Positions 20,701-64,000 of a stretch of 64,000 bases of DNA are shown one piece after another. The DNA is taken from positions 1-64,000 of the IMG/VR virus record IMGVR_UViG_3300023178_000009; one strand, given 5' to 3'. This DNA is from a virus. Under the pieces are notes generated by a model that saw nothing but the letters and a program-made list of their open reading frames with translations, ran no database searches and was not told the DNA's origin. Each line of letters begins with the position of its first letter. Within the stretch, counting starts at the first letter, position 1. The position numbers and the translations under genes were made by a program.

Positions 20701-23700
20701 GTGAGTGATTTAACACGTGTTATATACGTCGACGATGGTACCCCAGCCAGTAGCGATTTATATGTTACTCCTCACGGCTACGTAGAAAAATCAGAAGAAG
20801 CCGGTCACGGCTTCGTTGGCATAACCAATGCATCCACTTCAGGTGTCGGCGAAAGACAGGTTAAGCGAACGGCAGGTGTCTTAGGTATTACCAATGGATC
20901 TACTTCAGGCATTGGCGAACGCACAGTCAAATCCACATCAGGTTCGTTAACTGCTTCTACTGGTCCTTCAGTATCATCACCGGGCGAACGCAGTGTAGTA
21001 TCATATAGTACCGCTGTTGTAGCAACTACTCCTCCATCATCGTCTGGTATCGGCGAACGGCAAATTGATCAAACTTCAGGTTCTTTAGCTCAAGCTGGTA
21101 ATGCAAGTTTATCATCAACTGGCGAGAGGCAAGTTAAACGAACAGCTGGTGTTGGCGGTATAGCTAATGGATCTACATCTGGTGTAGGTGAAAGACAAGT
21201 TAAGCGAACGGCTGGTGTCTTAGGTATTGCCAATGGATCTACATCTGGTGTCGGTGAAAGACAGGTTAAAAGAACTGCTGGTATCTTAGGTATTGCTAGC
21301 GGATCAACATCAGGTATTGTTGAAAGACAAGTTAAACGGACTGCTGGTGTCTTAGGTATTGCCAATGGATCTACTTCAGGTGTAGGTGAAAGACAAGTTA
21401 AACGGACTGCTGGTGTCTTAGGTATTGCCAATGGATCTACTTCAGGTGTAGGTGAACGGCAAATCGATCAAACCTCAGGTTCTTTAGCTCAAGCTGGTGA
21501 TGCCAGTTCATCGGGTATTGGTGAAAGACAGGTTAAAAGAACTGCTGGTGTCTTAGGTATTACCAATGGATCTACTTCTGGTATTGGTGAACGTCAGATA
21601 GATCAAACGTCTGGTTCTTTGGCGCAAGTTGGTAATGCTAGTTTATCTGGCGTCAGTGAACGCACAATTACTCAGACTGCCGATAATTTACCAGCGAAAA
21701 GTAATCATACACTTGTAGGTATCGGCGAACGGCAAATAGTTTCTACTTCTGGTTCACTAACGGCATCTACAGTTGGCTCAGTATCGTCACCCGGTGAGCG
21801 TACTGTAGTATCCTATAGCACAGCGGTTGTTGCGCAAAATGGATCTACTACTGGTGTTGGTGAAAGACAAATAGATCAAACTTCTGGCTCTTTGGCTCAG
21901 GCTGGTAACGCAAGTTTAGTCGGTATTGCTGAAAGGCAGATTACGCAAACAGCCGATAATTTACCGACAAATACTGGTTCTACTTCGGGCGTCGGTCTTG
22001 CAGGTAAAGACGTTAAAGTCGGCATTTTAGGTATAGCTAATTCTGAATCGTCCGGCATTGGTGAGAGACAAATAACACAAACTGCTGATCTATCAGGATT
22101 TACCGCTGGTTCAACTTCTGGTACTGGCTTACGTACTATTAAATCAACGTCAGGTTCTTTGGAAGCTTCTACCGGCCCGGTAATATCAAGCCCTGGCGAA
22201 CGTATTATTACGACTTATAGTTCTGCTGTCGTTGCTCAAGATGGATCTACGGTTGGTATTGGTGAGAGACAGATTACGCAGACCGCTGACAACTTACCAG
22301 CTAAGAGCGATCATACACTCGTAGGATCTGGCCTAAGAACTATAACACAGACTGCTGATCTATCAGGATTTGCCGCTGGTTCAACTTCTGGTATTGGTTT
22401 ACGTACTATTAAATCAACATCAGGTTCTTTGTTAGCATCAACTGGACCTTCTGTATCAAGTCCCGGTGAAAGAACTATTACAACTTATAGTTCAGCTGTT
22501 GTTGCTCAGGATGGATCTACATCAGGCACTGGTTTACGTACTGTAACTCAAACAGCAGACAATCTTCCAGCTAAGAGTAATCATACACTCGTAGGAACTG
22601 GTCTAAGAACAATTACTCAAACAGCTGATCTATCAGGATTTGCAACAGGATCTACGTCAGGCACTGGTTTACGAACTATATTACAAACGTCTGACAATAT
22701 TCCTATTAATACAGGTTCTACAACTGGTATTGGTGAACGACAAATAATAACTAATTCAGGTTTAGATGGCTATCAAGTAGTAACCGGTTCTATATCATCT
22801 GTTGGTGAACGTACAATTACTCAAACCGCAGATCTTTCTGGTTTTGCAGAAGGATCAACATCTGGCACCGGCTTAAGAACTATTGTACAGACAGCTGATA
22901 ACTTACCTACTAATACAGGTTCTACAACTGGTACAGGTACAATTGAAACATTAGCTGTTGGTATTTTAGGTATTGCTAATAGTTCTGCATCTGGTACTGG
23001 TTTAAGAACTGTTGTGACTACTGATGGTTCGCTAACACCATCAACTATACCAGTCGTATCATCACCCGGCGAACGTATCATTACAACTTATAGTTCTGCG
23101 GTTGTGGCCACAACACCTCCGGAGCTTGATGGTGTCGGTGAACGTCAGATTACACAGACTGCTGATAATCTTCCAGCTAAGAGTGATCATACGCTTGTAG
23201 GTATCGTCGAAAGACAAATTATTCAAACAGCAGATAACTTACCAGCTAAGAGTAATCATACTCTATCAGGTACCGGTGAAAGACAGATTACCCAAACTGC
23301 AGACCTTTCTGGATTTGCAACTGGATCTACATCAGGTACCGGTGAACGACAAATCAATCAGACAGCAGATATCACAGGATATGATATATCAAGTGTAAAT
23401 GCTATTGGTGAAAGAACCGTTGTACAAACGGCCGATAATCTACCAACGAATACTGGTTCTACAACTGGTATAGGTATTTCCGGTAAAGTTGGTTCTGGTC
23501 AATTAACAGCATCAACACTTGGTTCTACATCTGGTATCGGTGAACGACAAATTGTTTCTACGTCTACCAGTTTACAAGCAAGCAATGCTTCTGTTTCAAG
23601 TGATATTGGTGAAAGACAGATAGATCAAACTTCCGGAAATCTTGCGCAAGCAAGTGATGCTAGTGTTAGTGCGATCGGTGAAAGAACTATTGTACAAACA

Positions 23701-25017
23701 GCTGATAATATTCCTGTTAATTCTGCTTCTGTATCAGGTATTAGTGAACGTCAGATTACACAAACCGCTGATAATTTACCAGCTAAGAGTAATCATACAT
23801 TATCAGGTGTCGGTGAAAGACAAATAGAAAGTACAGCTGGTATTTTAGGCATTATTAATGGATCAACTTCTGGTATAGGTTTACGTAGTATTACATCTAC
23901 ATCAGGAGCACTTGCTCCGACTACAACACCAAGTGTATCATCACCGGGTGAACGTACTATCACACTATATGTTGGCACAGCTGTAGCTACAGATGCTAGC
24001 TTAGTAGGTATTGTCGAAAGAACTATTGTACAGACAGCTGATAATCTACCTGTTAACACTGGTTCAATAAGTGGTACAGGTATAATTGAAACATCAGCGA
24101 CTGGTGTTTTAGGTATTACTGATAGTTCTGTATCTGGTGTTGGTGAACGACAAATTGTAATTACTTCTGGAATATCACAAGCAGAAGATGCATCGGTCAA
24201 CAGTGTCGGTGAAAGACAAATAGATGAGACTTCCGGAAGCTTGGTTGCTGATAATGCCGTCGTCAATAGTATTGGCGAAAGACAAATTACGCAAACAGCC
24301 GATAATATTCCTGTTAATACTGGATCTACTTCTGGTATTGGTGAAAGACAAATTGTTTCTACAAGTGGTAATTTAACGCCGTCCACTGTACCTATTGTAT
24401 CATCACCCGGTGAACGTATCATTACAACATACAGTAGTGCTGTTGTTGCAACTACTCCTCCTGAAACAAGTGGTATTGGTGAGAGAACTATTAATCTTAC
24501 GGATGGTGTATCTCAATCAGAGATATCACAAGTAAATGGTATTGGTGAAAGAGAAATAACCAAGACCGCTGATGATGCTCCTACACTTTACTCGCAAGTT
24601 GTGGGTAATGTAATTAGAGAAGTTAAATCTGTTGTTGCAGTCGGTGGAATAGAAAACAGTGTTGTTAACGGTAATGGTGAAGTTGAAGTTCGAGGTCAAG
24701 GTTTTGCCGGTATTACAAATTCATCGGTATCTGGTATTGGTGAAAGAGAAGTAAATACTGAAAACGGTTCAGGCAATCTAGTAAACGCTGGAATTGATAA
24801 TGCAGTCGTAGGCCAAGGTCTTAAGTCGTATAATATTGCATTACAAGCTACGACAGGGCCGTCAGTATATGGTCTAGGTGCAAGAATAACAGACTTTGCT
24901 CAGCTAGTTCGTGTAACAGATACGGGCGAATCTACTATTACTACTAGTTTATCCGACGAAGATCAAATTGTTACATATAAAGAAAAAGAATACATTAAGA
25001 AAATAACAGTAGCATAA
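20701..25017 (+). CDS. GER-repeat giant virion protein
   Basis: A 1438-residue protein starting at GTG with GGGAG eight bases upstream. After a 30-residue head (SDLTRVIYVDDGTPASS) it consists of some 55-60 repeats of about 22-23 residues, typified by GERQVKRTAGVLGIANGST and GERQITQTADNLPAKSNHT; recurring variants include SSPGERTITTYSSAVVA. The last 70 residues (YNIALQATTGPSVYGLG ... EKEYIKKITVA) leave the repeat. The regular length, with Gly-Glu-Arg at one corner and alternating hydrophobics, fits a beta-solenoid or fibrous rod (inference). Located between fibre genes and the neck gene gp13, so a fibre or whisker protein is likely. No catalytic motif. Confidence 0.65.
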   Translation: MSDLTRVIYVDDGTPASSDLYVTPHGYVEKSEEAGHGFVGITNASTSGVGERQVKRTAGVLGITNGSTSGIGERTVKSTSGSLTASTGPSVSSPGERSVVSYSTAVVATTPPSSSGIGERQIDQTSGSLAQAGNASLSSTGERQVKRTAGVGGIANGSTSGVGERQVKRTAGVLGIANGSTSGVGERQVKRTAGILGIASGSTSGIVERQVKRTAGVLGIANGSTSGVGERQVKRTAGVLGIANGSTSGVGERQIDQTSGSLAQAGDASSSGIGERQVKRTAGVLGITNGSTSGIGERQIDQTSGSLAQVGNASLSGVSERTITQTADNLPAKSNHTLVGIGERQIVSTSGSLTASTVGSVSSPGERTVVSYSTAVVAQNGSTTGVGERQIDQTSGSLAQAGNASLVGIAERQITQTADNLPTNTGSTSGVGLAGKDVKVGILGIANSESSGIGERQITQTADLSGFTAGSTSGTGLRTIKSTSGSLEASTGPVISSPGERIITTYSSAVVAQDGSTVGIGERQITQTADNLPAKSDHTLVGSGLRTITQTADLSGFAAGSTSGIGLRTIKSTSGSLLASTGPSVSSPGERTITTYSSAVVAQDGSTSGTGLRTVTQTADNLPAKSNHTLVGTGLRTITQTADLSGFATGSTSGTGLRTILQTSDNIPINTGSTTGIGERQIITNSGLDGYQVVTGSISSVGERTITQTADLSGFAEGSTSGTGLRTIVQTADNLPTNTGSTTGTGTIETLAVGILGIANSSASGTGLRTVVTTDGSLTPSTIPVVSSPGERIITTYSSAVVATTPPELDGVGERQITQTADNLPAKSDHTLVGIVERQIIQTADNLPAKSNHTLSGTGERQITQTADLSGFATGSTSGTGERQINQTADITGYDISSVNAIGERTVVQTADNLPTNTGSTTGIGISGKVGSGQLTASTLGSTSGIGERQIVSTSTSLQASNASVSSDIGERQIDQTSGNLAQASDASVSAIGERTIVQTADNIPVNSASVSGISERQITQTADNLPAKSNHTLSGVGERQIESTAGILGIINGSTSGIGLRSITSTSGALAPTTTPSVSSPGERTITLYVGTAVATDASLVGIVERTIVQTADNLPVNTGSISGTGIIETSATGVLGITDSSVSGVGERQIVITSGISQAEDASVNSVGERQIDETSGSLVADNAVVNSIGERQITQTADNIPVNTGSTSGIGERQIVSTSGNLTPSTVPIVSSPGERIITTYSSAVVATTPPETSGIGERTINLTDGVSQSEISQVNGIGEREITKTADDAPTLYSQVVGNVIREVKSVVAVGGIENSVVNGNGEVEVRGQGFAGITNSSVSGIGEREVNTENGSGNLVNAGIDNAVVGQGLKSYNIALQATTGPSVYGLGARITDFAQLVRVTDTGESTITTSLSDEDQIVTYKEKEYIKKITVA
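20803..24800 (+). repeat. 66-69 bp coding repeat array
   Basis: Repeats encoding xGERxIxxT-x13-15 across most of the gene; blocks near 21120-21470 are almost identical in DNA. Confidence 0.85.
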
Positions 25018-32943: not shown

Positions 32944-34650
32944 ATGGAACTGTTTGGATTTGAGATAAACCGCAAGAAAGAAGAGAAGCAAAAAGAAAAG
33001 CTTGTCTCCTTCGTACCTCCGTCAAACGAAGATGGTGCATTAACCGTTGCCGCCGGCGGCGTATATGGCACTTATGTCGATCTCGATGGTTCAGTCAGAA
33101 CCGAAGCAGAATTAGTAAACAAATATCGTGCCATTTCGTTTGACCCTATTCTCGACATGGCAATTCAAGAAATCTGTAATGAAGCTATTGTCGAAGATTC
33201 AGACGAAGAAACAGTTAGTATTGTCCTTGACAATTTAGATACACAAGAATCAATTAAAAAATCAATTCAAGAAGAATTTGATGAAGTATTAAAACTTCTA
33301 GAATTTAATCGTTTGAGTTATGAATTGTTTCGTCGTTGGTATATTGATGGTCGCTTATACTATCATATACTTGTAGATGAAAAGAAACCGGCTCGAGGTA
33401 TTCTAGAAGTAAGATATATTGATCCCCGCAATATCAAAAAAGTAAGAGAAGTTAAAAAAGAAAAAGATCCAAAGACTGGTGTTACAATTGAAAAAATTGT
33501 TAACGAATACTATATGTACAGTCCATCAGGATTTTTAAAGAGAACTGGATCTATAACCGGTTCATCAATGAGTTCGTACGGATCTAGTAGTCCTGCAGCA
33601 AATGCTGAAGGAATTAAAATTTCTAAAGATTCTATCGTATATAACACCAGTGGATATCAAAGCTTAGATAACAAACTTATTCTCTCTTGGTTACAAAAAG
33701 CTATACGACCTCTTAATCAACTGCGATCTATGGAAGATTCGTTAGTAGTATATCGTATTTCTCGTGCGCCTGAACGTCGAATTTTCTATGTTGATGTAGG
33801 CGGTCTGCCAAAAGCTAAAGCAGAACAATACTTGTCTGATATCATGACTAAGTTCAAAAATAAAGTAGTTTATGATTCTGCAACTGGCGAAATTAAAGAC
33901 GATCGTAAATTCATGACAATGCTAGAAGATTTCTGGTTACCACGAAGAGAAGGTGGTAAAGGTACAGAGATTACTACATTGCCAGGCGGTGCTAATCTAG
34001 GAGATATTGAAGACGTACAATATTTTCAAACTAATTTATATCGTGCGCTCAATGTACCTATTTCTCGATTACAGCCAGAATCTACATATAGTCTTGGAAG
34101 AGCCACAGAGATTACCAGAGACGAAGTTAAGTTCAGTAAGTTTATCCTACGTCTTCGACAAAAGTTCTCAGAATTATTTCTGAAACTTCTCGAGAGACAA
34201 CTTATCCTAAAGCAGATTTGTTTGCCAGAAGAGTGGGAAGAATGGAAAGATGAAATTAATTTTGACTTTGCTGTCGATAACTATTTCGAAGAATTAAAAT
34301 CACTAGAAATGAATCGCGATCGCATTGGTCTATTGCGAGAGATGGAAGAATATGTTGGTAAATATTATTCTCATGAATATATTCGTCGATATGTATTGCA
34401 ACAATCAGAAGAAGAAATAAAAGATCTTGATGAGCAAATTAAAGCTGAAACAACAGATCTACGATATAATGAACCTGAAGAAGAGATGGAAGATGAGCCA
34501 GAAGAAGAACCAGCACCGCCGGCTCCTACATATAAGTTAGTTCCTGATGATTCAAAAGAACAAGAAGAAAAACCAGAAAAGAAAGAGGAGTATAACGAAC
34601 TTCAGGTAAACTTGATTGAAAGTATGACACGATATCTAAACGATGAATAA
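32944..34650 (+). CDS. 20: Portal protein gp20
   Basis: A 568-residue portal (T4 gp20 is 524). Twelve copies form the vertex ring that nucleates the head and passes DNA. Conserved parts: KYRAISFDPILDMAIQEICN, FRRWYIDGRLYYHILVD, IRPLNQLRSMEDSLVVYRIS, RAPERRIFYVDVGGLPK and NVPISRLQPES. The C-terminus is a long acidic and Pro-rich tail (EEMEDEPEEEPAPPAPTY). ATG 32944 gives the gp20 frame; an ATG at 32940 is in another frame with an early stop. Overlaps the collagen-like gene by eight bases. Confidence 0.95.
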   Translation: MELFGFEINRKKEEKQKEKLVSFVPPSNEDGALTVAAGGVYGTYVDLDGSVRTEAELVNKYRAISFDPILDMAIQEICNEAIVEDSDEETVSIVLDNLDTQESIKKSIQEEFDEVLKLLEFNRLSYELFRRWYIDGRLYYHILVDEKKPARGILEVRYIDPRNIKKVREVKKEKDPKTGVTIEKIVNEYYMYSPSGFLKRTGSITGSSMSSYGSSSPAANAEGIKISKDSIVYNTSGYQSLDNKLILSWLQKAIRPLNQLRSMEDSLVVYRISRAPERRIFYVDVGGLPKAKAEQYLSDIMTKFKNKVVYDSATGEIKDDRKFMTMLEDFWLPRREGGKGTEITTLPGGANLGDIEDVQYFQTNLYRALNVPISRLQPESTYSLGRATEITRDEVKFSKFILRLRQKFSELFLKLLERQLILKQICLPEEWEEWKDEINFDFAVDNYFEELKSLEMNRDRIGLLREMEEYVGKYYSHEYIRRYVLQQSEEEIKDLDEQIKAETTDLRYNEPEEEMEDEPEEEPAPPAPTYKLVPDDSKEQEEKPEKKEEYNELQVNLIESMTRYLNDE

Positions 34651-35797
34651 TATTGATCCGATTGTAACCTCATTCGCTATCGCTACAGCGAAGAAGGAAG
34701 CAAAAAAATTAGAAGATAAAATCTTCGATGTATTAGAAGAAGTTCAAACCCGCGGCCCTATGGGTCTTGATGGAGAACAAGGCCCACAAGGCCTAACTGG
34801 AAAAACCGGTCCGATGGGCCCACAAGGTCTACCCGGACCTCGTGGAGAAAAAGGAGAAACTGGTGAGCAAGGAATACAAGGAGAAACCGGAGAAATTGGA
34901 CCAGCTGGTGAGCGGGGCGAAACTGGCTTACAAGGCATTCAAGGAGAACAGGGCCCACAAGGACCACAAGGGATTCAAGGAGAGATTGGTCCAATTGGTG
35001 AGCAAGGTCCGCAAGGTCCGCAAGGAGAACGCGGAGCAGATGGACAACGCGGCGCTCAGGGAGAAAAAGGTGAAAAGGGTGACGTCGGCCCAACTGGCGC
35101 TACAGGAATTGCAGGACCGATCGGACCTCAAGGAGAAAAAGGCGATAAAGGCGATTCGGGAGAACAAGGTCCGCCGGGCAAGGATGGCAAAGATGGCCAA
35201 GACGCAGATCACGAACAAATAAAAGAACAAATCAATACTTTATTTGATGATGCTAAAAATTATTTAGATACACAACAAAAGAATTTACAAGAGCAATTAG
35301 ATGCTACTCAATTACAAGATCTAACTGAGTTTAAAGCAAAACTTACAAAAGAAGTATCTGATACTATTGAGAAGCATAAGAAATTTATTGATACACAAAT
35401 TTCTAATAAATGGGCGTCATCTGCTGGTGGTGGTTCGGTAAATATCCTACAGATGGATGACGTTCAGTTTCAAAAGAGACATGAAGTCGAAGGCGATGCT
35501 ATTTTAATATTTGATGCAAGTATAAAGAAATTTGTATCAGAATCATTTAGCGCTATTATAGACAGATTAGAATTAAATATTGGGACGGCATTAGAAGTGC
35601 AATACGATAAATTAGTTGATCAAGAAGGTGATTTCACTTATATCGGTGAAGCAGCACCGGGCTCTGCTCGTGATGCGGCGGTATGGAGAATTAAAAGAGT
35701 CTATGAAATAGGCGATGATATTGAAATCATATGGGCAAATAATACTGCCAATACAGAACTTATCTGGGACAATCGAGCAACGTACGAGTACAACTAA
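34643..35797 (+). CDS. Collagen-like structural protein
   Basis: A 384-residue protein. Residues 1-37 are helical; residues 38-187 are 50 uninterrupted Gly-X-Y triplets (GPMGLDGEQGPQGL...), enough for a 40-nm collagen triple helix; residues 190-255 are a charged coiled coil; the rest is a beta-type tip (NILQMDDVQFQKRHEVEGD ... YTYIG-like AAPGSARDAAVWRIKRVYEI). The triple helix plus coiled coil implies a trimeric fibre. Only two prolines occupy the Y position (GLP and GPP). It follows the portal gene, a place where T4 has prohead-core genes, so it may be a head or neck fibre (inference). Confidence 0.85.
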   Translation: MNNIDPIVTSFAIATAKKEAKKLEDKIFDVLEEVQTRGPMGLDGEQGPQGLTGKTGPMGPQGLPGPRGEKGETGEQGIQGETGEIGPAGERGETGLQGIQGEQGPQGPQGIQGEIGPIGEQGPQGPQGERGADGQRGAQGEKGEKGDVGPTGATGIAGPIGPQGEKGDKGDSGEQGPPGKDGKDGQDADHEQIKEQINTLFDDAKNYLDTQQKNLQEQLDATQLQDLTEFKAKLTKEVSDTIEKHKKFIDTQISNKWASSAGGGSVNILQMDDVQFQKRHEVEGDAILIFDASIKKFVSESFSAIIDRLELNIGTALEVQYDKLVDQEGDFTYIGEAAPGSARDAAVWRIKRVYEIGDDIEIIWANNTANTELIWDNRATYEYN

Positions 35798-57469: not shown

Positions 57470-57698
57470 TAAGTGGAACGGTGAAGCAGATCCAATCGGA
57501 GATGTAGTATTCGAAAGAATTATGCAACTATATAATGGTGAAAGAGTTGAAAAACCTTTACATTATCCCTCGATTGATGTAGAATGGTTAATTAAGGATA
57601 TGAGAAGTATATGTGAACAGTGTTGGTTTCTAGACATTTCACTAAAACAGCTCATGGATATGGTATATGATGAAATCGCAGGTATAAAAGATGAGTAA
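57456..57698 (+). CDS. Small hypothetical protein
   Basis: An 80-residue protein (AKNDKWNGEADPIGDVVFER, DMRSICEQCWFLDISLKQLM), helical and acidic. ATG 57456 is chosen: GGAG lies nine bases upstream, and the TTG immediately before it is unlikely. It overlaps the MazG-like gene by eight bases, so the two are probably translated together. Not recognised. Confidence 0.6.
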   Translation: MAKNDKWNGEADPIGDVVFERIMQLYNGERVEKPLHYPSIDVEWLIKDMRSICEQCWFLDISLKQLMDMVYDEIAGIKDE

Positions 57699-58104
57699 AG
57701 ATTGGGCAAGTGATATCGCATCCATGCATGATAAGTATGGTGTCCGCGAGTGGGTAAAGAATAATCCTGAGAAGTTGAAAGAGTTTCTCGCATTTCGTTT
57801 GAAGTTTGTACAAGAAGAATTCCAAGAAACATTGGAAGCTGCAGTCAATAATGATCCAGAAGAGCTGGTAGATGGTCTGATCGATCTTTGTGTTGTTGCA
57901 ATAGGTACCCTTGATGCATTTGGTATCGATGCTCACAAAGCTTGGGATGTGGTCTATGCAGCTAATATGGCCAAAGAGATTGGTGTTAAAGAATCTCGGC
58001 CGAATCCACTTGGTCTACCAGATCTAGTCAAGCCAGAAGGATGGCAAACACCATCACATGCCGGCAATCATGGTATCTGGGAAGAGATGGCCAAGTCTGA
58101 ATAA
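57691..58104 (+). CDS. MazG-like nucleotide pyrophosphohydrolase
   Basis: A 137-residue all-alpha NTP pyrophosphohydrolase. The metal-binding pattern is visible as EEFQE (E42, E43, E46), then EELVDGLIDL (E58, D61, D65). MazG-like enzymes hydrolyse nucleoside triphosphates to monophosphates; T4-like phages use such proteins with DNA-modification enzymes to drain unmodified nucleotides or to adjust ppGpp. It begins the nucleotide-modification region, and is separated from the next gene by a promoter-like sequence. Confidence 0.8.
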   Translation: MSKDWASDIASMHDKYGVREWVKNNPEKLKEFLAFRLKFVQEEFQETLEAAVNNDPEELVDGLIDLCVVAIGTLDAFGIDAHKAWDVVYAANMAKEIGVKESRPNPLGLPDLVKPEGWQTPSHAGNHGIWEEMAKSE

Positions 58105-58108
58105 AGCA

Positions 58109-58137
58109 TGTACATGTGTCTCGTTTTATAGTAGAAT
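58109..58137 (+). promoter_or_regulatory. Possible sigma70-like promoter
   Basis: TGTACA (58109-58114), 17-base spacer and TAGAAT (58132-58137), 28 bases before ATG 58165. The -10 is identical to that of the uvsY promoter; the -35 matches TTGACA at four of six positions. Confidence 0.45.
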
Positions 58138-58164
58138 ATAATCTTCACACACAGGAAATATATT

Positions 58165-58812
58165 ATGAATTATCAAATTGCTTATCAGGAACTCGGCGCC
58201 ACTAAATTTTTACGTACTCATGGTCGCGATGTAGTAGAAATCCTAGGACATAATGTTACTGTAAATAAAATCAATCGGTTTTTAGGTTCTCGTGGTAGTA
58301 ATGTCTCGGATTTCTTTTGGCGAAATCGAAATCGATTGCACATCTATGGCATGTCTGTCGTCCAAGTAAATGAGAAATGCCGAATTAAAATTAATGCTAT
58401 TGGCCCCCGCGGCAACGTATTAAATTTTGTTGAAAATACTAATAAGCAACCTAATAAATTGGAGCCAGAAATGAAAGAATCTCTTAAGGTTCTGCAAGAA
58501 TGTGCTGAAGTACAAGTTAAAAAGTCAAACGACTATCAAAATGAATTCTCCCGCATTCGTCAAGCAGATTACTATCCTCGTGGTATCGCAACCATTACAG
58601 ATCTAATCTATGCTAAAGTTCTTCGTATGCAATCAGTCATTGAAGCTAGTGAACGAGATCCTAACTATGAACCGAACTTCGAATCAATCGAAGATTCAGC
58701 TAAAGATCTAATCAACTATGCATCTTTTGTTGTTGCATATATGCGTGGTAAGATGGATGGACAAGAATCTAACCGTGACTTTCTTAATAGGATCGTAAAT
58801 GATTCAGAATAA
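58165..58812 (+). CDS. DUF1599-like nucleotide-modification-associated protein
   Basis: A 215-residue protein. Residues 1-85 are a basic domain (KINRFLGSRGSNVSDFFWRN). Residues about 105-210 (ECAEVQVKKSNDYQNEFSRI, then ITDLIYAKVLRMQSVIEA and EDSAKDLINYASFVVAYMRG) follow the DUF1599 pattern: a K-N-DY motif, an I-x2-K-x2-R helix and D-x2-NYA. DUF1599 is also called nucleotide modification associated domain 1. Preceded by an AGGAAA RBS and a promoter-like sequence. It overlaps the hydroxymethylase gene by 14 bases. Confidence 0.65.
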   Translation: MNYQIAYQELGATKFLRTHGRDVVEILGHNVTVNKINRFLGSRGSNVSDFFWRNRNRLHIYGMSVVQVNEKCRIKINAIGPRGNVLNFVENTNKQPNKLEPEMKESLKVLQECAEVQVKKSNDYQNEFSRIRQADYYPRGIATITDLIYAKVLRMQSVIEASERDPNYEPNFESIEDSAKDLINYASFVVAYMRGKMDGQESNRDFLNRIVNDSE

Positions 58813-59476
58813 AGTAGAAGACATTCGTTGTTACTTTAAACAAGCTCTTCACGAGAAACGTTTCACCACAGATAAGACTGGTCAAAAGACTATAGAACTT
58901 ATTGGTGCTTCATTTCTCGCTGACGAGCCATCTATCTTTGGTAAACCGAATCAAAAATATATCAAGGCCGAAATCCAGTGGTATATGTCTCAGTCTACCA
59001 ATATTAATGACATATATAGTAGAGATCGTAAACCACCAGAAGCATGGCAATATAGTGCTGATGCAAATGGTGAAATCAATTCTAATTACGGCTATCTCAT
59101 TTATAACGAACGCTTTGGTAATCAATATAAGCAAGTTCGTGATGAGATGATGAAGAATCCATACGGTCGCCGTGGTACTATGATCTACAATCGACCATCA
59201 ATATGGCACGAGTACAACGAGGGTGGCAAGTCAGACTTTATTTGTACCAATGCTGTAAGCTACTATCTTCGAGATCATAAGCTACATGCAGTGGTTCAGA
59301 TGCGCTCTAATGATGTAGTCTTTGGTTATAAGAATGACTATGCATGGCAACGATTTGTACTTGAAAATCTTGCATATGATATTAGCCTACCACAACACGA
59401 TGTTGGTGTTGGTACAATCACGTGGCAAGTACAAAATCTTCACGTATATGAACGACACTTTGATTTGGTAGAATGA
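58799..59476 (+). CDS. 42: dCMP hydroxymethylase (gp42-like)
   Basis: A 225-residue enzyme of the thymidylate synthase fold that converts dCMP to 5-hydroxymethyl-dCMP with methylene-tetrahydrofolate. It matches T4 gp42 as I remember it along most of its length: DKTGQKTIELIGASF, ADEPSIFG, GEINSNYG, SDFICTN, MRSNDVVFG, NDYAWQ, LHVYERHFDLV. Catalytic Cys149 corresponds to T4 Cys148, and D180 (in KNDYAW) to T4 Asp179, the residue that favours cytosine over uracil. It overlaps the previous gene by 14 bases and the next by four. Confidence 0.92.
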   Translation: MIQNKVEDIRCYFKQALHEKRFTTDKTGQKTIELIGASFLADEPSIFGKPNQKYIKAEIQWYMSQSTNINDIYSRDRKPPEAWQYSADANGEINSNYGYLIYNERFGNQYKQVRDEMMKNPYGRRGTMIYNRPSIWHEYNEGGKSDFICTNAVSYYLRDHKLHAVVQMRSNDVVFGYKNDYAWQRFVLENLAYDISLPQHDVGVGTITWQVQNLHVYERHFDLVE

Positions 59477-59889
59477 GAGTAGGATTTACTGCTTCAGCAT
59501 TTGATCTATTACACGCCGGACATGTCTCAATGCTAAGAGAGGCAAAGACACAGTGTGACTATTTGATTTGTGGTTTACAAGTAGATCCTGGTCTCGATCG
59601 ATTAGAGAAAAACAAACCAATACAAACTTTACCGGAAAGATATATACAATTGTCAGCTGTAAAATATGTTGATGAGATTATACCTTATGAAACAGAAATT
59701 GATTTGAAGGATATCTTAGAAACATTAAAAATCGATGTACGTATTCTTGGTGACGAGTATCGTAATCTAGATTTTACTGGCAAAGAGATATGCCAACAAC
59801 GTGGCATTGAATTATATTTCAATCAACGAGATCATAGGTTTTCAACAAGTGATCTAAGAAAAAGAGTAACGTTATGTACGGAGTCTTAA
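59473..59889 (+). CDS. Glycerol-3-phosphate cytidylyltransferase-like (TagD)
   Basis: A 138-residue nucleotidyltransferase. H14-A-G-H17 in FDLLHAGHVSML is the HxGH CTP-binding motif, and RFSTSDLRKRV near the end stands for the R-x-STS-x2-R signature. TagD-type enzymes join CTP to a phosphorylated polyol. Phage copies are known from marine myoviruses; use in cell-surface glycan or in a modified-base pathway is open. Overlaps the hydroxymethylase and the i-spanin genes. Confidence 0.82.
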   Translation: MRVGFTASAFDLLHAGHVSMLREAKTQCDYLICGLQVDPGLDRLEKNKPIQTLPERYIQLSAVKYVDEIIPYETEIDLKDILETLKIDVRILGDEYRNLDFTGKEICQQRGIELYFNQRDHRFSTSDLRKRVTLCTES

Positions 59890-60350
59890 TTGGTATTATA
59901 CTTGCACTTGGTGGTGCAGGTTATTGGTACTATGATACAACACAGGCCGAACTTATATATTTAAAAACACATAATGCTGCACTCGAGTCTGCAATTGAAA
60001 CTCAAAAGGAAACATTGAATCAAATGCAAGAAGCAGCTGAACTTCAAAGTAAATCTATCAATGAGTTAACGGTTGCCAATCAACAAGCAGAACAAGAGAT
60101 GAATCGCTATCTCAGTATCTTTGCTCGTCATGATCTAACGAGGCTCGCGGCTGCTAAGCCAGGACTAATTGAAACAAGAGTAAACAGAGGAACGAAAGAT
60201 GTATTCGACAGCATTGAAAATGCTTCTCGTGCTATCGATCTCCTTGACGACGGGGTGCAGCTTTCTGCGAACTCCGGAGCCGGAGGTAGTGATACAAACG
60301 AAAGTAGTACGAGTGCCGATAACACAACCGATTCTACCTCGGGAAATTGA
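59874..60350 (+). CDS. Rz-like i-spanin (inner-membrane lysis protein)
   Basis: A 158-residue type II membrane protein: residues 3-19 (GVLIGIILALGGAGYWYY) are the transmembrane helix, followed by a coiled coil (AALESAIETQKETLNQMQEA ... AEQEMNRYLSIFARHD) and a flexible Gly/Ser/Thr tail. This is the layout of lambda Rz, which spans the periplasm and fuses the two membranes at lysis together with Rz1. The overlapping lipoprotein gene supports the call. It starts 16 bases inside the cytidylyltransferase gene. Confidence 0.8.
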   Translation: MYGVLIGIILALGGAGYWYYDTTQAELIYLKTHNAALESAIETQKETLNQMQEAAELQSKSINELTVANQQAEQEMNRYLSIFARHDLTRLAAAKPGLIETRVNRGTKDVFDSIENASRAIDLLDDGVQLSANSGAGGSDTNESSTSADNTTDSTSGN

Positions 60351-60588
60351 ACTTCGTGATCCTCAGTTCTATGTCGTATCGGCAAAGAATTTAGACGAGT
60401 TTATTGCGCGAGTAGAAAAAGAGTCAGGACAAGTTGTATTCATCGCGATGAGCGTTGCAGATTACGAATTGATGTCCTATAATATGCAAGAAATCAAACG
60501 ATATGTACAGCAGATGCAAGATGTGGTAGTATATTATCGTAGGGTAGTTGAAGACAACAATTCGAAAGTAGATGATAACAACAACTAG
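60199..60588 (+). CDS. Rz1-like o-spanin lipoprotein
   Basis: A 129-residue lipoprotein starting 152 bases inside the i-spanin gene in another frame. The signal MYSTALKMLLVLSISLTTGC carries a lipobox ending at C20, the lipidation site. A Pro-rich segment follows (RTPEPEVV, RVPITQPILPREIEL), as in Rz1, then a longer helical C-terminus (EIKRYVQQMQDVVVYYRRVV) that may pair with the i-spanin. Longer than lambda Rz1 (60 residues), as in T4 PseT.2/3-like or marine systems. Implies a host with an outer membrane. Confidence 0.82.
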   Translation: MYSTALKMLLVLSISLTTGCSFLRTPEPEVVIQTKVVRVPITQPILPREIELRDPQFYVVSAKNLDEFIARVEKESGQVVFIAMSVADYELMSYNMQEIKRYVQQMQDVVVYYRRVVEDNNSKVDDNNN

Positions 60589-61753
60589 ATATTATGATGA
60601 GTTTATAAGGTACTTTAATTTAGCCTCTAAACAACAAGAGCTATGTAATGTATCTAATAAAGAACCTTATGGGATGATCGCACACAAAGATTCGAATCTT
60701 GGTGATGATCTCATGGAGAATGTTGAATTGTATGATGTAGTCGAGCGTAAGTATGCTGGCTTCTCACAAATTATTAATGATTGCTTTTATGGATGGACTG
60801 AAGATCATCCATATTGGAAAAAGATGGAGGCGGGTGTGTGCACTCGCCAACGAGAGACCGTTGCCAAAGACTGGACCGGTAAACACAACGTATTCTCTCT
60901 TCCTGAATGGCTGTATATTTTTATACTCCATCGGGTAACCGGTTCAGCAATTAACTATGCCCAAAAACCATCGGGCTATTATAACACCATACTATTCAAT
61001 CTACATCAATGTGATACGATTGAAGAAATGGTGCAGCTGGTGAAACACTACCCGGTATCCTTTTATACTTCAGTCGGATACCAGTTCCCAGCATTTCCAA
61101 AACCAGTCGGTGACTATCGAAAGGGCGGCGACTATTACCTTGGTGAGTTCGCCCCAAGGCTGGCTCGAGATCTCGCGGACCATTTGACGATGGGTCCTAA
61201 AAAGGACCTTCGCGAGATTGGAGAGTTTATGCTGAAGTGGAACGAGGACAACGGCCTTCGACGCTATCAGTTTCAGTACGCAGCAGTAGTGGCTGACGTC
61301 GCCGACTGGTTTCCCCAATATGTGAACCGTGAGAGCATGTTCTATTACGGTACAAATGCAGTAGAATGTATTTCATACCTCGCTTTTCCAGAAAAGAGGA
61401 TGAAGAAAGAGTTGTTCCTTGATGCCGTCATGACAAAAATATATGATGATACAGGAAGTGTACCATATAATGCCGAAGATGTATGTTGTGACTTCATTCG
61501 TTATGTTGAGAATTATGTCCGGCCAGGTCCGGATTATGATCATCTAGATTATGATACCCTGTGGTCGTCATGCGGCATCAAGGATCACCCCTATGGCCGC
61601 CAGAAGTATATGCTAGATTTGGGTTTGGTAAATACTTTTAATGGCATGAAAAATCATCCATCTGATGACTTCATTTTGAAGAAAAACAATATGACTGCTG
61701 AAGAGTATCAACATAATGTAAATGCGAGGCTCCGATACAATGAAAATTTTTGA
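60572..61753 (+). CDS. Unassigned enzyme, candidate DNA-hypermodification (ADDT/aGPT-PPlase type)
   Basis: A 393-residue, mostly helical protein with many conserved-looking aromatic and charged residues: EPYGMIAHKDSNLGDDL, FYGWTEDHPYWKKMEAG, LHRVTGSAINYAQKPSGYYN, GGDYYLGEFAPRLARDLADH, RRYQFQYAAVVADVADWFPQ. It resembles, from memory, phage proteins assigned to amino acid:DNA transferase or alpha-glutamyl/putrescinyl thymine pyrophosphorylase groups predicted in thymine/hydroxymethylpyrimidine hypermodification. Neighbouring hydroxymethylase and PLP-enzyme genes support that reading, but no decisive motif was seen. Its end overlaps the next small gene. Confidence 0.45.
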   Translation: MITTTRYYDEFIRYFNLASKQQELCNVSNKEPYGMIAHKDSNLGDDLMENVELYDVVERKYAGFSQIINDCFYGWTEDHPYWKKMEAGVCTRQRETVAKDWTGKHNVFSLPEWLYIFILHRVTGSAINYAQKPSGYYNTILFNLHQCDTIEEMVQLVKHYPVSFYTSVGYQFPAFPKPVGDYRKGGDYYLGEFAPRLARDLADHLTMGPKKDLREIGEFMLKWNEDNGLRRYQFQYAAVVADVADWFPQYVNRESMFYYGTNAVECISYLAFPEKRMKKELFLDAVMTKIYDDTGSVPYNAEDVCCDFIRYVENYVRPGPDYDHLDYDTLWSSCGIKDHPYGRQKYMLDLGLVNTFNGMKNHPSDDFILKKNNMTAEEYQHNVNARLRYNENF

Positions 61754-62000
61754 TTTAGAACAACAGATCTTAGATTGTTGGAAAGTAACTGACGACATTG
61801 ATTTGGTGACAAAACATTTTGTTGATAGTCCAGAATGGGAAGGCATTGATCCAAAAGTTTGTGATGCGCTGATGAACAAGTATTTTGCTATCAAAGAACT
61901 GTATGAATTGAAGTTCAATGAGATGTGGGAATCCTTTGAGACAGTATGTAAAGAATATCATGAGGCAAGAAAAAATGACGCTGACTCACTTTCTAGGTGA
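61740..62000 (+). CDS. Small conserved hypothetical protein
   Basis: An 86-residue protein (MKIFDLEQQILDCWKVTDDI, ALMNKYFAIKELYELKFNEM, then WESFETVCKEYHEARK). Proteins starting with a LEQQIMDCW-type motif and ending FxxFExxCxEY are widespread in T4-like cyanophages; function unknown. ATG 61740 is preferred over the ATG at 61722 because GAGG lies 11 bases upstream and the start overlaps the preceding gene closely. Overlaps the next gene by 26 bases. Confidence 0.7.
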   Translation: MKIFDLEQQILDCWKVTDDIDLVTKHFVDSPEWEGIDPKVCDALMNKYFAIKELYELKFNEMWESFETVCKEYHEARKNDADSLSR

Positions 62001-62967
62001 ACATGATAATGATATTCAATACAATAATATCGCTGAAGTAGATTACAAAAACGGCAAACCAACATCATCGTGGCTAAAAGACTGGTGCCAAGAAGCTCGA
62101 ACGAATAAGTTCTTCGAGTTTTGTCGTGCCTATGACGAGCGTAAAGACTTCCTGCTCAAGAATAACTATCAACAGTTCTCACATCGTTTGCACTGGCATG
62201 AGTGCCCGTTTGTCGAGGAAATGGCACAATTAAAAGATCGTGCCAAATTAATCGAAGGATGTGTCCTGTTTTCTTTTAGCAACGAGCATTGGCAAACATT
62301 TAGAGCATGGAAAGATCATGGCTATGATGGCATGAAGGTACGGTTCTCGAATTATCGGCATGCACGTTCTGATCTCTTTCAGATCTATTATCCAAAAGAT
62401 ACCAAAGTCAAAGATTGGTTGATTGAAACACCAGCTCGTGTAGCAATTGAACTAGATGCGATGTTTGATGGCATGAGACGACCAATGACGATGATGGAGT
62501 TCGCCAAGAAGATGAATATCATCATGGTACGCGATTTTGGTTTTCGTAATGCCATGTATCCGTCAAAGAATGCAGCACGCCATGTTGCAATGAGTCATCC
62601 TGAATGGGTTGATCCTGACTCATTCTTACATGGCGGAACGGGATACTTCGATGGTCTATCACAAATCTTTGACTGTCCACATCTCATGTCAAAATCAAAG
62701 TATGAGATCGATGAGAATGGTGAATACGTACCAATGAATAAGTGGGCAGAGATGCAGGTCCAACACATGGACTATCTAAAGAATCATCCTAGCAATCCGA
62801 TTCATACACATCAGTATCTCAACTTAGAAGACAAATTGTGTATGCATTATAAATTTATGTCGATGAAACTTGGTTCCAAAAAACAGACAAAAATGATACC
62901 ATATAACTGGGTGTATCCAGACAATTGGTCACTAAAAACAAATAGGTACGATCGTGTCACACAATAA
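61975..62967 (+). CDS. Unassigned protein in modification cluster
   Basis: A 330-residue protein. ATG 61975 has GAGG nine bases upstream; two earlier in-frame ATGs lie deeper in the previous gene. Notable stretches are VLFSFSNEHWQTFRAWKDHG, RRPMTMMEFAKKMNIIMVRD, FGFRNAMYPSKNAARHVAMS and HGGTGYFDGLSQIFDCPHLM. It is rich in His, Trp and Met and mostly helical. It lies between the 393-residue candidate enzyme and the PLP enzyme with overlapping ends, so it probably shares their pathway. No family assigned. Confidence 0.5.
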   Translation: MTLTHFLGEHDNDIQYNNIAEVDYKNGKPTSSWLKDWCQEARTNKFFEFCRAYDERKDFLLKNNYQQFSHRLHWHECPFVEEMAQLKDRAKLIEGCVLFSFSNEHWQTFRAWKDHGYDGMKVRFSNYRHARSDLFQIYYPKDTKVKDWLIETPARVAIELDAMFDGMRRPMTMMEFAKKMNIIMVRDFGFRNAMYPSKNAARHVAMSHPEWVDPDSFLHGGTGYFDGLSQIFDCPHLMSKSKYEIDENGEYVPMNKWAEMQVQHMDYLKNHPSNPIHTHQYLNLEDKLCMHYKFMSMKLGSKKQTKMIPYNWVYPDNWSLKTNRYDRVTQ

Positions 62968-63835
62968 TCATGTAATCGATGGCGTTAATAAAGACGTAGG
63001 AGTTTTTGGCTATGAAGCAGCAAGAGAATATTATCTATCTTTGTGCGAAGGATGGGAACCGTACAACCCCGAACCGGTTGTACGAGAACACGATGGCATT
63101 CGAGTCGTACGAGATGACCTTATCGTGGGGACAAAAGCGAGAGCTGGAGATCTCCTTGCAAGTCGATGCCCCTCAGACACAATTGTATACTGTCAACCTC
63201 GCACCGGACTCGCCGGAGTTTCCATATTGGACTGTGCAAAACGATATAATAAAGACGTAATACTATTCATGCCATCGTCTCAGCGCGTCTCTTTACATCA
63301 GGCATGCTGCATTGAACGTGGCGCTAAACCTATCTTTAAACGTATCGCCGCTATGCCAAATTTAAACAAAGCAGCTAAAGAATATGCAGAGAAACACGGA
63401 TACTTTTTTGTCCCACTCGGACTTAGACATGAATTGGCGACTGCAGCTATAGTACACACTGCTATACAAATACCAGAACCTGAAGAAGTATATGTGGCTA
63501 CATCGACAGGTGTACTTAGTAGGGCATTGCAAATCGCGTGGCCAAGAGCTAAGTTTACGAGTATCGCAGTGGCGAGGAATCTTAAAGCCGGAGAATTAGG
63601 AAGAGCAGATGTCATATCAGAACCACTCGCTTTTACAGCATCTGAAAAGAAACAAAATTTACCTCCATTTCCTTCGATTGATACGTACGATGGAAAAGTC
63701 TGGAAGTACATTCCAAAAAACACGGGTCGGGATATTCTGTTTTGGAATGTTGGTACTGAACCTAGTTTACAAGACCATAACATATATGATAGAATAGATT
63801 CATATCGCGATTGGGAGAAAAAAGATGTTGCGTAG
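62954..63835 (+). CDS. PLP-dependent enzyme, fold-type II (ACC deaminase-like)
   Basis: A 293-residue protein with VVRDDLIVGTKARAG, matching the opening motif of tryptophan-synthase-beta/ACC-deaminase-like enzymes in which K61 would bind pyridoxal phosphate. The following CQPRTGLAGVSILDCAKRYN then LFMPSSQRVSLHQACCIERG resembles the cofactor and substrate loops, and STGVLSRALQIAWPRA the phosphate-binding region. Shorter than ACC deaminase (about 340). GTG start with AGG upstream. A PLP enzyme could supply or trim an amino-acid group on a modified base (inference). Confidence 0.65.
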   Translation: MSHNNHVIDGVNKDVGVFGYEAAREYYLSLCEGWEPYNPEPVVREHDGIRVVRDDLIVGTKARAGDLLASRCPSDTIVYCQPRTGLAGVSILDCAKRYNKDVILFMPSSQRVSLHQACCIERGAKPIFKRIAAMPNLNKAAKEYAEKHGYFFVPLGLRHELATAAIVHTAIQIPEPEEVYVATSTGVLSRALQIAWPRAKFTSIAVARNLKAGELGRADVISEPLAFTASEKKQNLPPFPSIDTYDGKVWKYIPKNTGRDILFWNVGTEPSLQDHNIYDRIDSYRDWEKKDVA

Positions 63836-64000
63836 TGGTTTAGTAGCTACACCGTTTATTACTATTTCACGCCAAATGACCAGCCATCGTGCTGCTCAAG
63901 GTGTAATATATGCAGATCAACTTTCTGAGGCCAATATTGGTACAATTAAAGTAAACATGACAGGTGATCAGTATGTCTCCGATTTTTGTGATTTCGATGA
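63825..64000 (+). CDS. 3'-truncated gene at window end
   Basis: An ATG at 63825 with GGAG seven bases upstream opens a frame that stays open to the last base (58 complete codons): MLRSGLVATPFITISRQMTS, then HRAAQGVIYADQLSEANIGT. It overlaps the PLP-enzyme gene by 11 bases, like its neighbours. Too short to assign; it is likely another member of this gene set. Confidence 0.6.
   Translation, partial: MLRSGLVATPFITISRQMTSHRAAQGVIYADQLSEANIGTIKVNMTGDQYVSDFCDFD

Follow-up and report, generated by a model that had tools for sequence, protein, structure and literature searches.

The window, the whole 64,000-nucleotide stretch of IMG/VR virus record IMGVR_UViG_3300023178_000009 that was analysed, ends inside a run of genes (Table 1) located in the replication-gene block of a T4-superfamily phage, between gp46/47 and the clamp gene. 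The genes and positions described in an earlier note on this DNA were all confirmed by an ORF check, and most neighbouring genes do overlap, by 4–32 nt; the description of nearly all ends as overlapping fails for the MazG-like and DUF1599-like genes, which lie 60 nt apart. The gene set extends beyond the window edge at 64000, with the ORF for the 367-aa protein followed by a 402-aa ORF resembling C5-methyltransferases. Two features had been missed: an Rz/Rz1-like spanin pair, placed between the nucleotidyltransferase and the 393-aa protein gene, and a 92-aa ORF limited to close relatives. The spanin genes are lysis genes that sit inside the cluster and outside the conserved modification set.

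Table 1. Features of the locus, with the matches or observations on which each assignment is based.
Feature	Position	Strand	Length (aa)	Basis
MazG-like nucleotide pyrophosphohydrolase	57691..58104	+	137	PF01503 E 6.6e-12; phrog_671 1.4e-23; position conserved
DUF1599/Nmad1-like protein, 'nucleotide modification associated'	58165..58812	+	215	PF07659 E 1.5e-4; phrog_1485 5e-12
gp42-type dCMP hydroxymethylase (predicted)	58799..59476	+	225	PF00303 2e-16; phrog_160 1e-48
Cytidylyltransferase-like nucleotidyltransferase	59473..59889	+	138	PF01467 3e-13
Rz/Rz1-like spanin pair	59874..60588 (Rz 59874-60350, Rz1 60199-60588)	+		phrog_739 1.7e-15; phrog_812 3e-13
393-aa core protein	60572..61753	+	393	Profile comparison with the 330-aa family; shared motifs
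ORF, function not assigned	61722..62000	+	92	Open frame; 14/124 first loci
HMUDK_hel/aGPT-PPlase/ADDT-fold protein	61975..62967	+	330	AlphaFold pLDDT 88.8; Foldseek
M6-type fold-II PLP enzyme	62954..63835	+	293	phrog_7093 9.5e-35; weak in Pfam
SGNH-like protein	63825..64928 (63825..64000 in window)	+	367	Motifs GDSH, GNIDVRHH, SVHLS; phrog_13881 6e-59
C5-methyltransferase-like ORF	64928-66136 (past window)		402	PF00145 E 5e-16

That the locus exists as a gene set is evident from its conservation. About 100 IMG/VR contigs show the gene order gp47-gp46-MazG-DUF1599-gp42-393-330-PLP-367-(C5MT)-GT-clamp, and the locus is therefore more than a chance assembly. The linkage of gp42 and the 393-aa, 330-aa, PLP and 367-aa proteins is fixed across very many contigs: all five are present in 33 of the 47 distinct contigs with enough flanking sequence for co-occurrence to be counted. 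Ten long relatives each carry a single thymidylate synthase-like gene and a PLP gene (10/10). The nucleotidyltransferase, in contrast to these conserved partners, is found in only 6 of 124 first loci; we dropped it as a pathway member and regard it as an accessory gene outside the conserved set. It shares 71% identity with proteins from Vibrio phages; among PHROGs, it matches heptose-1-phosphate adenylyltransferase best. Its earlier description as a CTP-dependent nucleotidyltransferase stands as far as the family is concerned, while the use of CTP is without evidence.

The first genes of the set point to a supply of hydroxymethylcytosine. The gp42-type protein is 53% identical to T6/T4 gp42 (phmmer E 3e-73) and retains the catalytic Cys of thymidylate synthases (DFICTN, aligned with T4 DFMCTN). 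Its KNDYAW aligns with T4 RNDYAW, which places the cytosine-type Asp, rather than the Asn of thymidylate synthases, at T4 position 179, as the earlier note had read it; the same Asp occurs in 72 of 72 distinct gp42 homologues (66 recognised by a pattern, 6 by inspection). As judged by sequence, the protein is a dCMP hydroxymethylase. No dUMP hydroxymethylase was found, the gp42-type gene being the sole thymidylate synthase-like gene in this record. Homologues of the T4 gp56 dCTPase and of the T4 gp1-type hmdCMP kinase were not found in the record either, and it is the absence of the former that makes the MazG-like protein a plausible candidate for dCTP removal. The DUF1599-like protein scores 22.5 bits against PF07659, under the 25-bit cut-off, and its position is conserved.

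The 393-aa and 330-aa proteins, described before as unassigned, indeed belong, together with all aligned relatives, to no Pfam or PHROG family. Their profiles found no match in a sequence search of the PDB, and tblastn with the 393-aa protein, the 330-aa protein and a divergent 393-aa protein found none in 50,697 phage records. The 393-aa protein is present in at least nearly 600 viral contigs. The predicted structure of the 330-aa protein matches HMUDK_hel/aGPT-PPlase proteins of phages phiRSL1, phiW-14 and SP10, as well as 5-hmdU-kinase helical-domain protein(s) of Microbacterium phage (Foldseek against BFVD, probability 0.98–1.00), with modest E-values (0.006–0.03) and a TM of about 0.5 to HMUDK_hel structures. 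Two of the BFVD fold matches are named 'Amino acid:DNA transferase domain-containing', a name that Pfam scans did not reproduce; against the PDB, the model gave only a weak match to the AGOG glycosylase, which is suggestive at most, and the PDB Foldseek search with the 393-aa protein was uninformative. On this modelled fold, the 330-aa protein is a candidate base-substitution enzyme, its function being inferred. The two proteins share helix spacing and motifs (GTNAVECISYL/YNAEDVCCDF), and comparison of the 393-aa profile with the 330-aa family gave P 0.005–0.03 (1/60 shuffles); we infer that the 393-aa protein is probably a paralogue of the 330-aa protein, within the HhH-glycosylase-like HMUDK_hel/aGPT-PPlase superfamily.

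Sequence signals supporting the fold match are weak. Against HMUDK_hel, hhalign was not significant alone for either protein; with deeper profiles the pairing of the 330-aa protein with HMUDK_hel reached 3/60 shuffles, which is still borderline, as is the 1/60 for the pairing of the 330-aa with the 393-aa protein. Since unrelated control pairs reached P 0.01–0.016, we do not count these signals as proof. The profile check proposed in the earlier note, run with the Pfam models HMUDK_hel (PF18723), ADDT (PF18724) and HMUDK (PF18748), yielded no sequence match anywhere in this record, and ADDT/aGPT-PPlase2 (PF18724) matched nothing in the ten long relatives either, so the HMUDK_hel link rests only on structure and motifs.

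The PLP fold-type-II assignment is supported. The protein falls into phrog_7093, to which gp052 of Pseudomonas phage M6 also belongs, and hhalign aligns the two over their whole length, including the C-terminal FWN(V/I)G end (E 7.7e-9; z of about 17 against shuffles). Lys61, the PLP lysine, is invariant. Sequence comparison thus groups the protein with the PLP enzyme of M6 hypermodification, and we consider it a putative tailoring enzyme, acting by decarboxylation or elimination.

Downstream, the 367-aa gene is a near-constant core partner of the 393-aa gene, lying near it in 45 of 47 loci. The C5-methyltransferase-like gene is an optional member of the set. Its PCAGLS catalytic Cys, GENAP and Q(T/V)RER motifs show little or no variation across nine aligned homologues (PCAGLS in 17/17). 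Alignment to the Pfam profile begins only at position 59, and that to HhaI at residue 70, so that neither covers SAM motifs I–III; the motif-I glycine and the motif-II Glu appear to be absent, and the position of the latter varies among homologues. In a distant homologue (L131), the alignment already starts at profile position 10. About two thirds of relatives have, immediately ahead of the 393-aa gene and overlapping it, a gene for a DNA-glycosylase-like protein with one or the other of two unrelated folds.

Taken as a pathway, we think it likely that this locus directs cytosine hypermodification, in which the hydroxymethylcytosine made by gp42 would receive an amine or amino acid as substituent, for the PLP enzyme then to tailor; this chemistry has not been proven, and there are no nucleoside data. 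The initial step is a strong inference from homology: the MazG-like and DUF1599-like proteins would remove dCTP or otherwise adjust its pool, and 5-hydroxymethyl-dCMP would be produced by gp42 and then polymerised into DNA. By inference, the 393-aa and 330-aa proteins would next replace the 5-hydroxymethyl group in DNA with an amine or amino acid; they are predicted to share the fold of enzymes displacing pyrophosphate from activated 5-hydroxymethyluracil in thymine-modifying phages, and the 367-aa SGNH-like protein is their near-constant partner. Finally, the M6-type PLP enzyme may tailor the amino-acid side chain, e.g. by decarboxylation to a short amine. The proposal that thymine-type chemistry has been moved onto hydroxymethylcytosine thus finds support in the cytosine-type gp42, the M6-family PLP enzyme and the 330-aa fold, with the Pfam models negative. 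The fixed gene linkage, the DNA-glycosylase-like gene ahead of the 393-aa gene in many relatives and the fusion of the 367-aa family to an HMUDK_hel-like domain in Aeromonas phage 44RR2.8t also speak for this reading.

The DNA kinase that the 5hmU-based thymine pathways of phages M6, ViI, SP10 and phiW-14 would lead one to expect has no counterpart that we could find. The 5-hmdU DNA kinase model (PF18748) matched nothing here (E up to 10) or in the ten long relatives (E up to 1), in a search where the M6 control was positive, and a P-loop scan of this record revealed no unassigned kinase. With no 5-hmdU kinase found, activation must differ from that in the thymine pathways, and it is at this step that the analogy would break. 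Candidates for activating the hydroxymethyl group are an unrecognised kinase, the 393-aa or 367-aa proteins or, where present, the C5-methyltransferase-like protein. A kinase-free, amino-acid-type hypermodification of 5hmC, activated on DNA, for example through covalent attack at C6 by a SAM-independent C5-methyltransferase-like protein or through the 393-aa and 367-aa proteins as a pair, with the PLP enzyme then trimming the amino acid put in place, is possible, and we put it forward only tentatively. If true, it would constitute an independent route, parallel to the thymine pathways, to cytosine nucleosides never seen before, and kinase-free hypermodification would be abundant in environmental T4-superfamily phages.

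Other readings of the locus have to be weighed against cytosine hypermodification. Cytosine carries sugars in T-even phages, RB69 and Shewanella phage Thanatos (PMC6024577, PMC12838424), a GT-like gene directly follows the set in many loci (here at 66189-67163), and there are several more GT-like ORFs in the genome. The phage might only glycosylate hydroxymethylcytosine, through the adjacent gene or another glycosyltransferase, with the remaining proteins acting elsewhere. We consider this option, also raised in the earlier note, unlikely, and disfavour it without excluding it because the neighbouring GT-like gene is also found in T4-superfamily phages without detected 393-aa or 330-aa proteins: its family occurs in Sinorhizobium, Caulobacter and Synechococcus phages, which gave no match to either. 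No homologue of T4 beta-glucosyltransferase was found in this record, and the sole datum bearing on an alpha-glucosyltransferase is the weak PHROG match of the neighbouring gene. Moreover, glycosylation alone leaves unexplained why an M6-type PLP enzyme and an HMUDK_hel-fold protein are locked to gp42.

That the set modifies thymine or uracil, with gp42 as an unrelated neighbour, could be argued since those relatives of the PLP and HMUDK_hel proteins that are known act on 5-hydroxymethyluracil in DNA (PMC6449724, PMC9476957). This is hardly tenable given that the only thymidylate synthase-like gene, here and in the ten long relatives, is gp42-type, that every one of the 72 distinct cassette gp42 proteins has the cytosine-type Asp, and that neither a dUMP hydroxymethylase nor a 5-hmdU kinase was found. 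It is also very doubtful, in our view, that free nucleotides are the substrate of these proteins, or that they work against the host or against rivals (e.g. by degrading unmodified or foreign DNA), instead of decorating phage DNA. aGPT-PPlase and MazG domains are among predicted bacterial defence genes (PMC13092281), the 393-aa gene is overlapped by a DNA-glycosylase-like gene in many relatives, and an HhH-fold protein could itself be a glycosylase; such a role sits poorly with the position in the replication block, the tight linkage to a dCMP hydroxymethylase and a PLP enzyme from a known DNA-tailoring family.

To our knowledge, the only phage cytosine decorations known beyond methylation and hydroxymethylation are glycosyl and carbamoyl groups on hydroxymethylcytosine, the latter reportedly from the MetaGPA work. 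Decorations of the amine and amino-acid type are known on 5-hydroxymethyluracil; for cytosine, we found no report of such hypermodification in the open literature searched. The set described here probably decorates cytosine using enzymes whose relatives have so far been known only in phages that decorate thymine, and an entire class of cytosine decorations in DNA may still await description. As hundreds of viral contigs from the environment contain the set and the 50,697 phage records hold no 393-aa or 330-aa relative, a common DNA chemistry of the virome may have gone unseen, which would be of relevance to restriction and CRISPR evasion, to sequencing bias against such viromes and to enzymes attaching amines to cytosine in DNA.

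The closest parallels lie in known modification systems. With T4, the phage shares its superfamily and gp42, while no homologues of the beta-glucosyltransferase, gp1 kinase and gp56 dCTPase were found here, and PLP and HMUDK_hel-fold proteins are present instead. The 5-(2-aminoethyl)-dU cluster of M6 likewise combines a pyrimidine hydroxymethylase, a phrog_7093 PLP enzyme and HMUDK_hel/aGPT-PPlase-fold proteins in one cluster; its hydroxymethylase is uracil-type whereas the one here is cytosine-type, and in place of a 5-hmdU kinase, Pfam ADDT protein or radical-SAM gene, none of which was seen in our set, there are the 393-aa and 367-aa proteins. The 402-aa ORF shares the PCAGLS catalytic Cys, GENAP and QxRER motifs with the C5 cytosine DNA methyltransferases HhaI and HaeIII, but its detected similarity starts after SAM motifs I–III, and it is optional in the set. 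Finally, in Aeromonas phage 44RR2.8t ORF233c (795 aa) and its relatives, the N-terminal 335 residues belong to the 367-aa family and the C-terminal half carries an HMUDK_hel-like domain (PF18723 E 9e-4 alone), in a phage that also has a gp42-type gene. Its arrangement differs, being a single fused gene near motA that is not adjacent to gp42, in a phage without a PLP gene; 44RR2.8t is a cultured phage, and its related parts make one component of the proposed system testable.

The window takes up the first 64 kb of a record of 163,706 bases, which has the gene content of a T4-superfamily phage: gp46/47, the gp43 polymerase, UvsX and the gp61 primase were all detected. We confirmed the ORFs that an earlier note had named across 57691-63835 and added a spanin pair that it had overlooked; the modification set extends past the window edge. 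Its gp42 (225 aa) is 53% identical to T6/T4 gp42 and keeps both the catalytic Cys and the equivalent of T4 Asp179, bearing out the cytosine-type Asp claimed for the hydroxymethylase. This Asp is present in 72 of 72 distinct gp42 relatives from cassette loci (66 by pattern, 6 by eye). Since, besides this homology and the retained residues, gp42 is the sole thymidylate-synthase-like gene in the record (as in each of ten long relatives), the sequence allows a strong inference that it makes hydroxymethyl-dCMP. No homologues of T4 gp56 or gp1 were found in the record; the MazG and DUF1599 proteins may substitute for the dCTPase.

Within the set, conservation is highest in the 393-aa protein (393; 63-100% identity), which is encoded in at least nearly 600 viral contigs. 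We counted partners within 3 kb of its gene in the 47 distinct loci whose flanks reach at least 3 kb upstream and at least 4.5 kb downstream: the 367-aa protein (367) was encoded in 45, the PLP enzyme in 41, and the 330-aa protein (330) and gp42 in 39 each, with all four in 33. As loci were retrieved via the 393 and 330 proteins, the counts for 330 will be too high, a bias that does not apply in this form to gp42, PLP and 367. Three loci hold only gp42, 393 and 367, and one more holds these plus a C5-methyltransferase-like (C5MT-like) gene, which suggests that 330 and PLP are additions to a minimal core made up of these three. The nucleotidyltransferase, previously counted as part of the locus, is not a conserved partner: it occurs in 6 of the first 124 loci and an isocitrate-lyase-like ORF in 5, and both are therefore local additions.

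No sequence family was found for 330, and the profile check proposed earlier, against the Pfam families HMUDK_hel (PF18723) and ADDT (PF18724) of thymine-hypermodifying phages, gave no sequence match. When its predicted model (pLDDT 88.8) was compared with viral structures, '5-hmdU DNA kinase helical domain' proteins of Ralstonia phage phiRSL1, Delftia phage phiW-14, a Microbacterium phage and Bacillus phage SP10 ranked after close relatives (probability 0.98-1.00, TM ~0.45-0.52, E 0.006-0.03); a fused Aeromonas phage 31 protein also matched (probability 0.63), and the closest sensible PDB matches, AGOG DNA glycosylases, were weak. Scored with the HMUDK_hel profile against a background of length-matched ORFs, 70% of the 330 family lay over the 95th percentile, versus 1.6% of the 393 family. 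The best alignment of 330 with M6 gp055 pairs GTGYFDGLSQIF...LNLEDKLC with GPGAIRGLNRLYG...DIEHTLCE in register, and is not significant on its own. For 330, an HMUDK_hel-type fold is predicted from structural comparison. Profile alignment of 393 with 330 gave P 0.005-0.03, the two carry the same pair of motifs, and the predicted helix starts in the aligned stretch are spaced 28/21/27 (393) versus 28/21/28 (330) residues; we infer that 393 is a paralogue of 330.

367 carries the motifs GDSH, GNIDVRHH and SVHLS, its sequence suggesting an SGNH-type domain. The homologue in Aeromonas phage 44RR2.8t is joined to a C-terminal half with a weak Pfam HMUDK_hel match (E 9e-4 for that half), a fusion that independently links 367 to this fold in a gp42-carrying phage. 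The 367 family is likewise joined to a second half in avDM9, and in Aeromonas phage 25 the 367-like part stands unfused. Aeromonas phages with such a gene may carry an unrecognised hydroxymethylcytosine decoration.

The PLP protein was assigned to phrog_7093 (E 9.5e-35), its Pfam signal being very weak. This family also contains gp052 of phage M6, the PLP enzyme of the described M6 thymidine hypermodification cluster (PMC9476957). Profile comparison of the two gave E 7.7e-9 over the full length, with a common C-terminal 'FWN(V/I)G' end and a score ~17 standard deviations over shuffles; the PLP lysine is invariant. In Erythrobacter phages R6L and ZS04 (L009, L010) and Microcystis phage Mae-JY30 (L008) members of the PLP family are joined with or adjacent to N6_N4-type methyltransferase and ParB/sulfiredoxin genes, possibly another modification set, with no described function.

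Of 107 distinct loci, 58 have a UDG-superfamily-like ORF (Pfam UDG E 6e-4 to 0.02, under cut-off) that directly overlaps or adjoins the start of 393; an HhH-GPD-type gene occupies the same slot in 14 more contigs. That two unrelated glycosylase folds fill one slot suggests that base excision, itself inferred, perhaps of deaminated or faulty bases, accompanies the pathway. The window genome has neither gene there, and a spanin gene instead; spanin ORFs also lie upstream of 393 in L014 and L095-L096.

Features of the record (G000) and of contigs fetched as related loci (L-numbers)
Feature	Position	Remark
Rz/Rz1 spanin pair	59874-60588	inside modification cluster
367-aa ORF	63825-64928	starts in window, ends beyond
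402-aa C5MT-like ORF	64928-66136	outside window; also L065, L068, L076-L080, L083, L088, L090, L131, L172, L295
Glycosyltransferase-like ORF, then sliding clamp	downstream of 402-aa ORF	outside window
Isocitrate-lyase-like 412-aa ORF	68283-69521	outside window; adjoins sliding clamp; identified by eye only
UDG-like genes (examples)	L029:1939-2361; L172:4442-4858; L296:7612-7998; L047:6427-6858	
HhH-GPD gene, L122 copy	L122:9157-9963	PF00730 E 1e-9
44RR2.8t ORF233c	L281:8992-11379	no annotation; family in about 38 Aeromonas phage records, classic cultured T4-like phages
Long ORFs of tandem peptide repeats	9142-11490; 20701-25017	YPSRLQKAAYQNQT; GSTSGVGERQVKRTAGVLGIAN
384-aa collagen-like Gly-X-Y repeat protein	34643-35797	two short steps downstream of presumed portal gene
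2-oxoglutarate/Fe(II) oxygenase-like ORFs	11506, 13495, 14403, 69521, 75374, 81115, 85305, 98971, 101084, 101920, 124563, 131098	about a dozen, unusually many

In the best-supported account, gp42 would provide hydroxymethylcytosine, enzymes of the HMUDK_hel fold would substitute it in DNA, and the M6-type PLP enzyme would then tailor the product. Homology establishes the family memberships of the hydroxymethylase and the PLP enzyme; that the base is substituted, what group is added and how activation occurs are inferences. Simple glycosylation of hydroxymethylcytosine, instead of substitution and tailoring, is a less likely possibility: phages of Sinorhizobium, Caulobacter and Synechococcus also encode the adjacent glycosyltransferase family, and no 393 or 330 matches were found in them. 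That thymine is the target is unlikely, because gp42 is of the cytosine type. In the open-access literature searched, neither this set nor cytosine hypermodification of the amine or amino-acid type is described; as the search did not extend to subscription papers or to preprints outside PMC, an earlier description cannot be excluded.

No 5-hmdU kinase was detected in the record or in ten long relatives (the M6 positive control was), so the activation step must either proceed differently in this phage or rely on an enzyme not yet recognised; scanning the record for P-loops revealed no unassigned kinase. C5 methyltransferases couple nucleophiles to hydroxymethylcytosine without SAM, which makes the C5MT-like protein a candidate activator in genomes that have it. 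It is found, with intact catalytic motifs and an apparently altered SAM-binding half, in roughly a fifth of loci, and most lack it. The copy in this record retains the C5-methyltransferase catalytic motifs, its detected similarity beginning past the SAM motifs, whereas the alignment of a distant homologue (L131) begins further upstream.

The base that undergoes substitution in phiW-14 is pyrophosphorylated hydroxymethyluracil (PMC5977210), and the 5-hmdU kinase that acts in pathways of that type (PMC6449724) is what the window phage and the ten long relatives lack by comparison. With the thymidine hypermodification cluster of M6, whose DNA contains 5-(2-aminoethyl)deoxyuridine (PMC6449724), the window phage has the PLP enzyme family in common.
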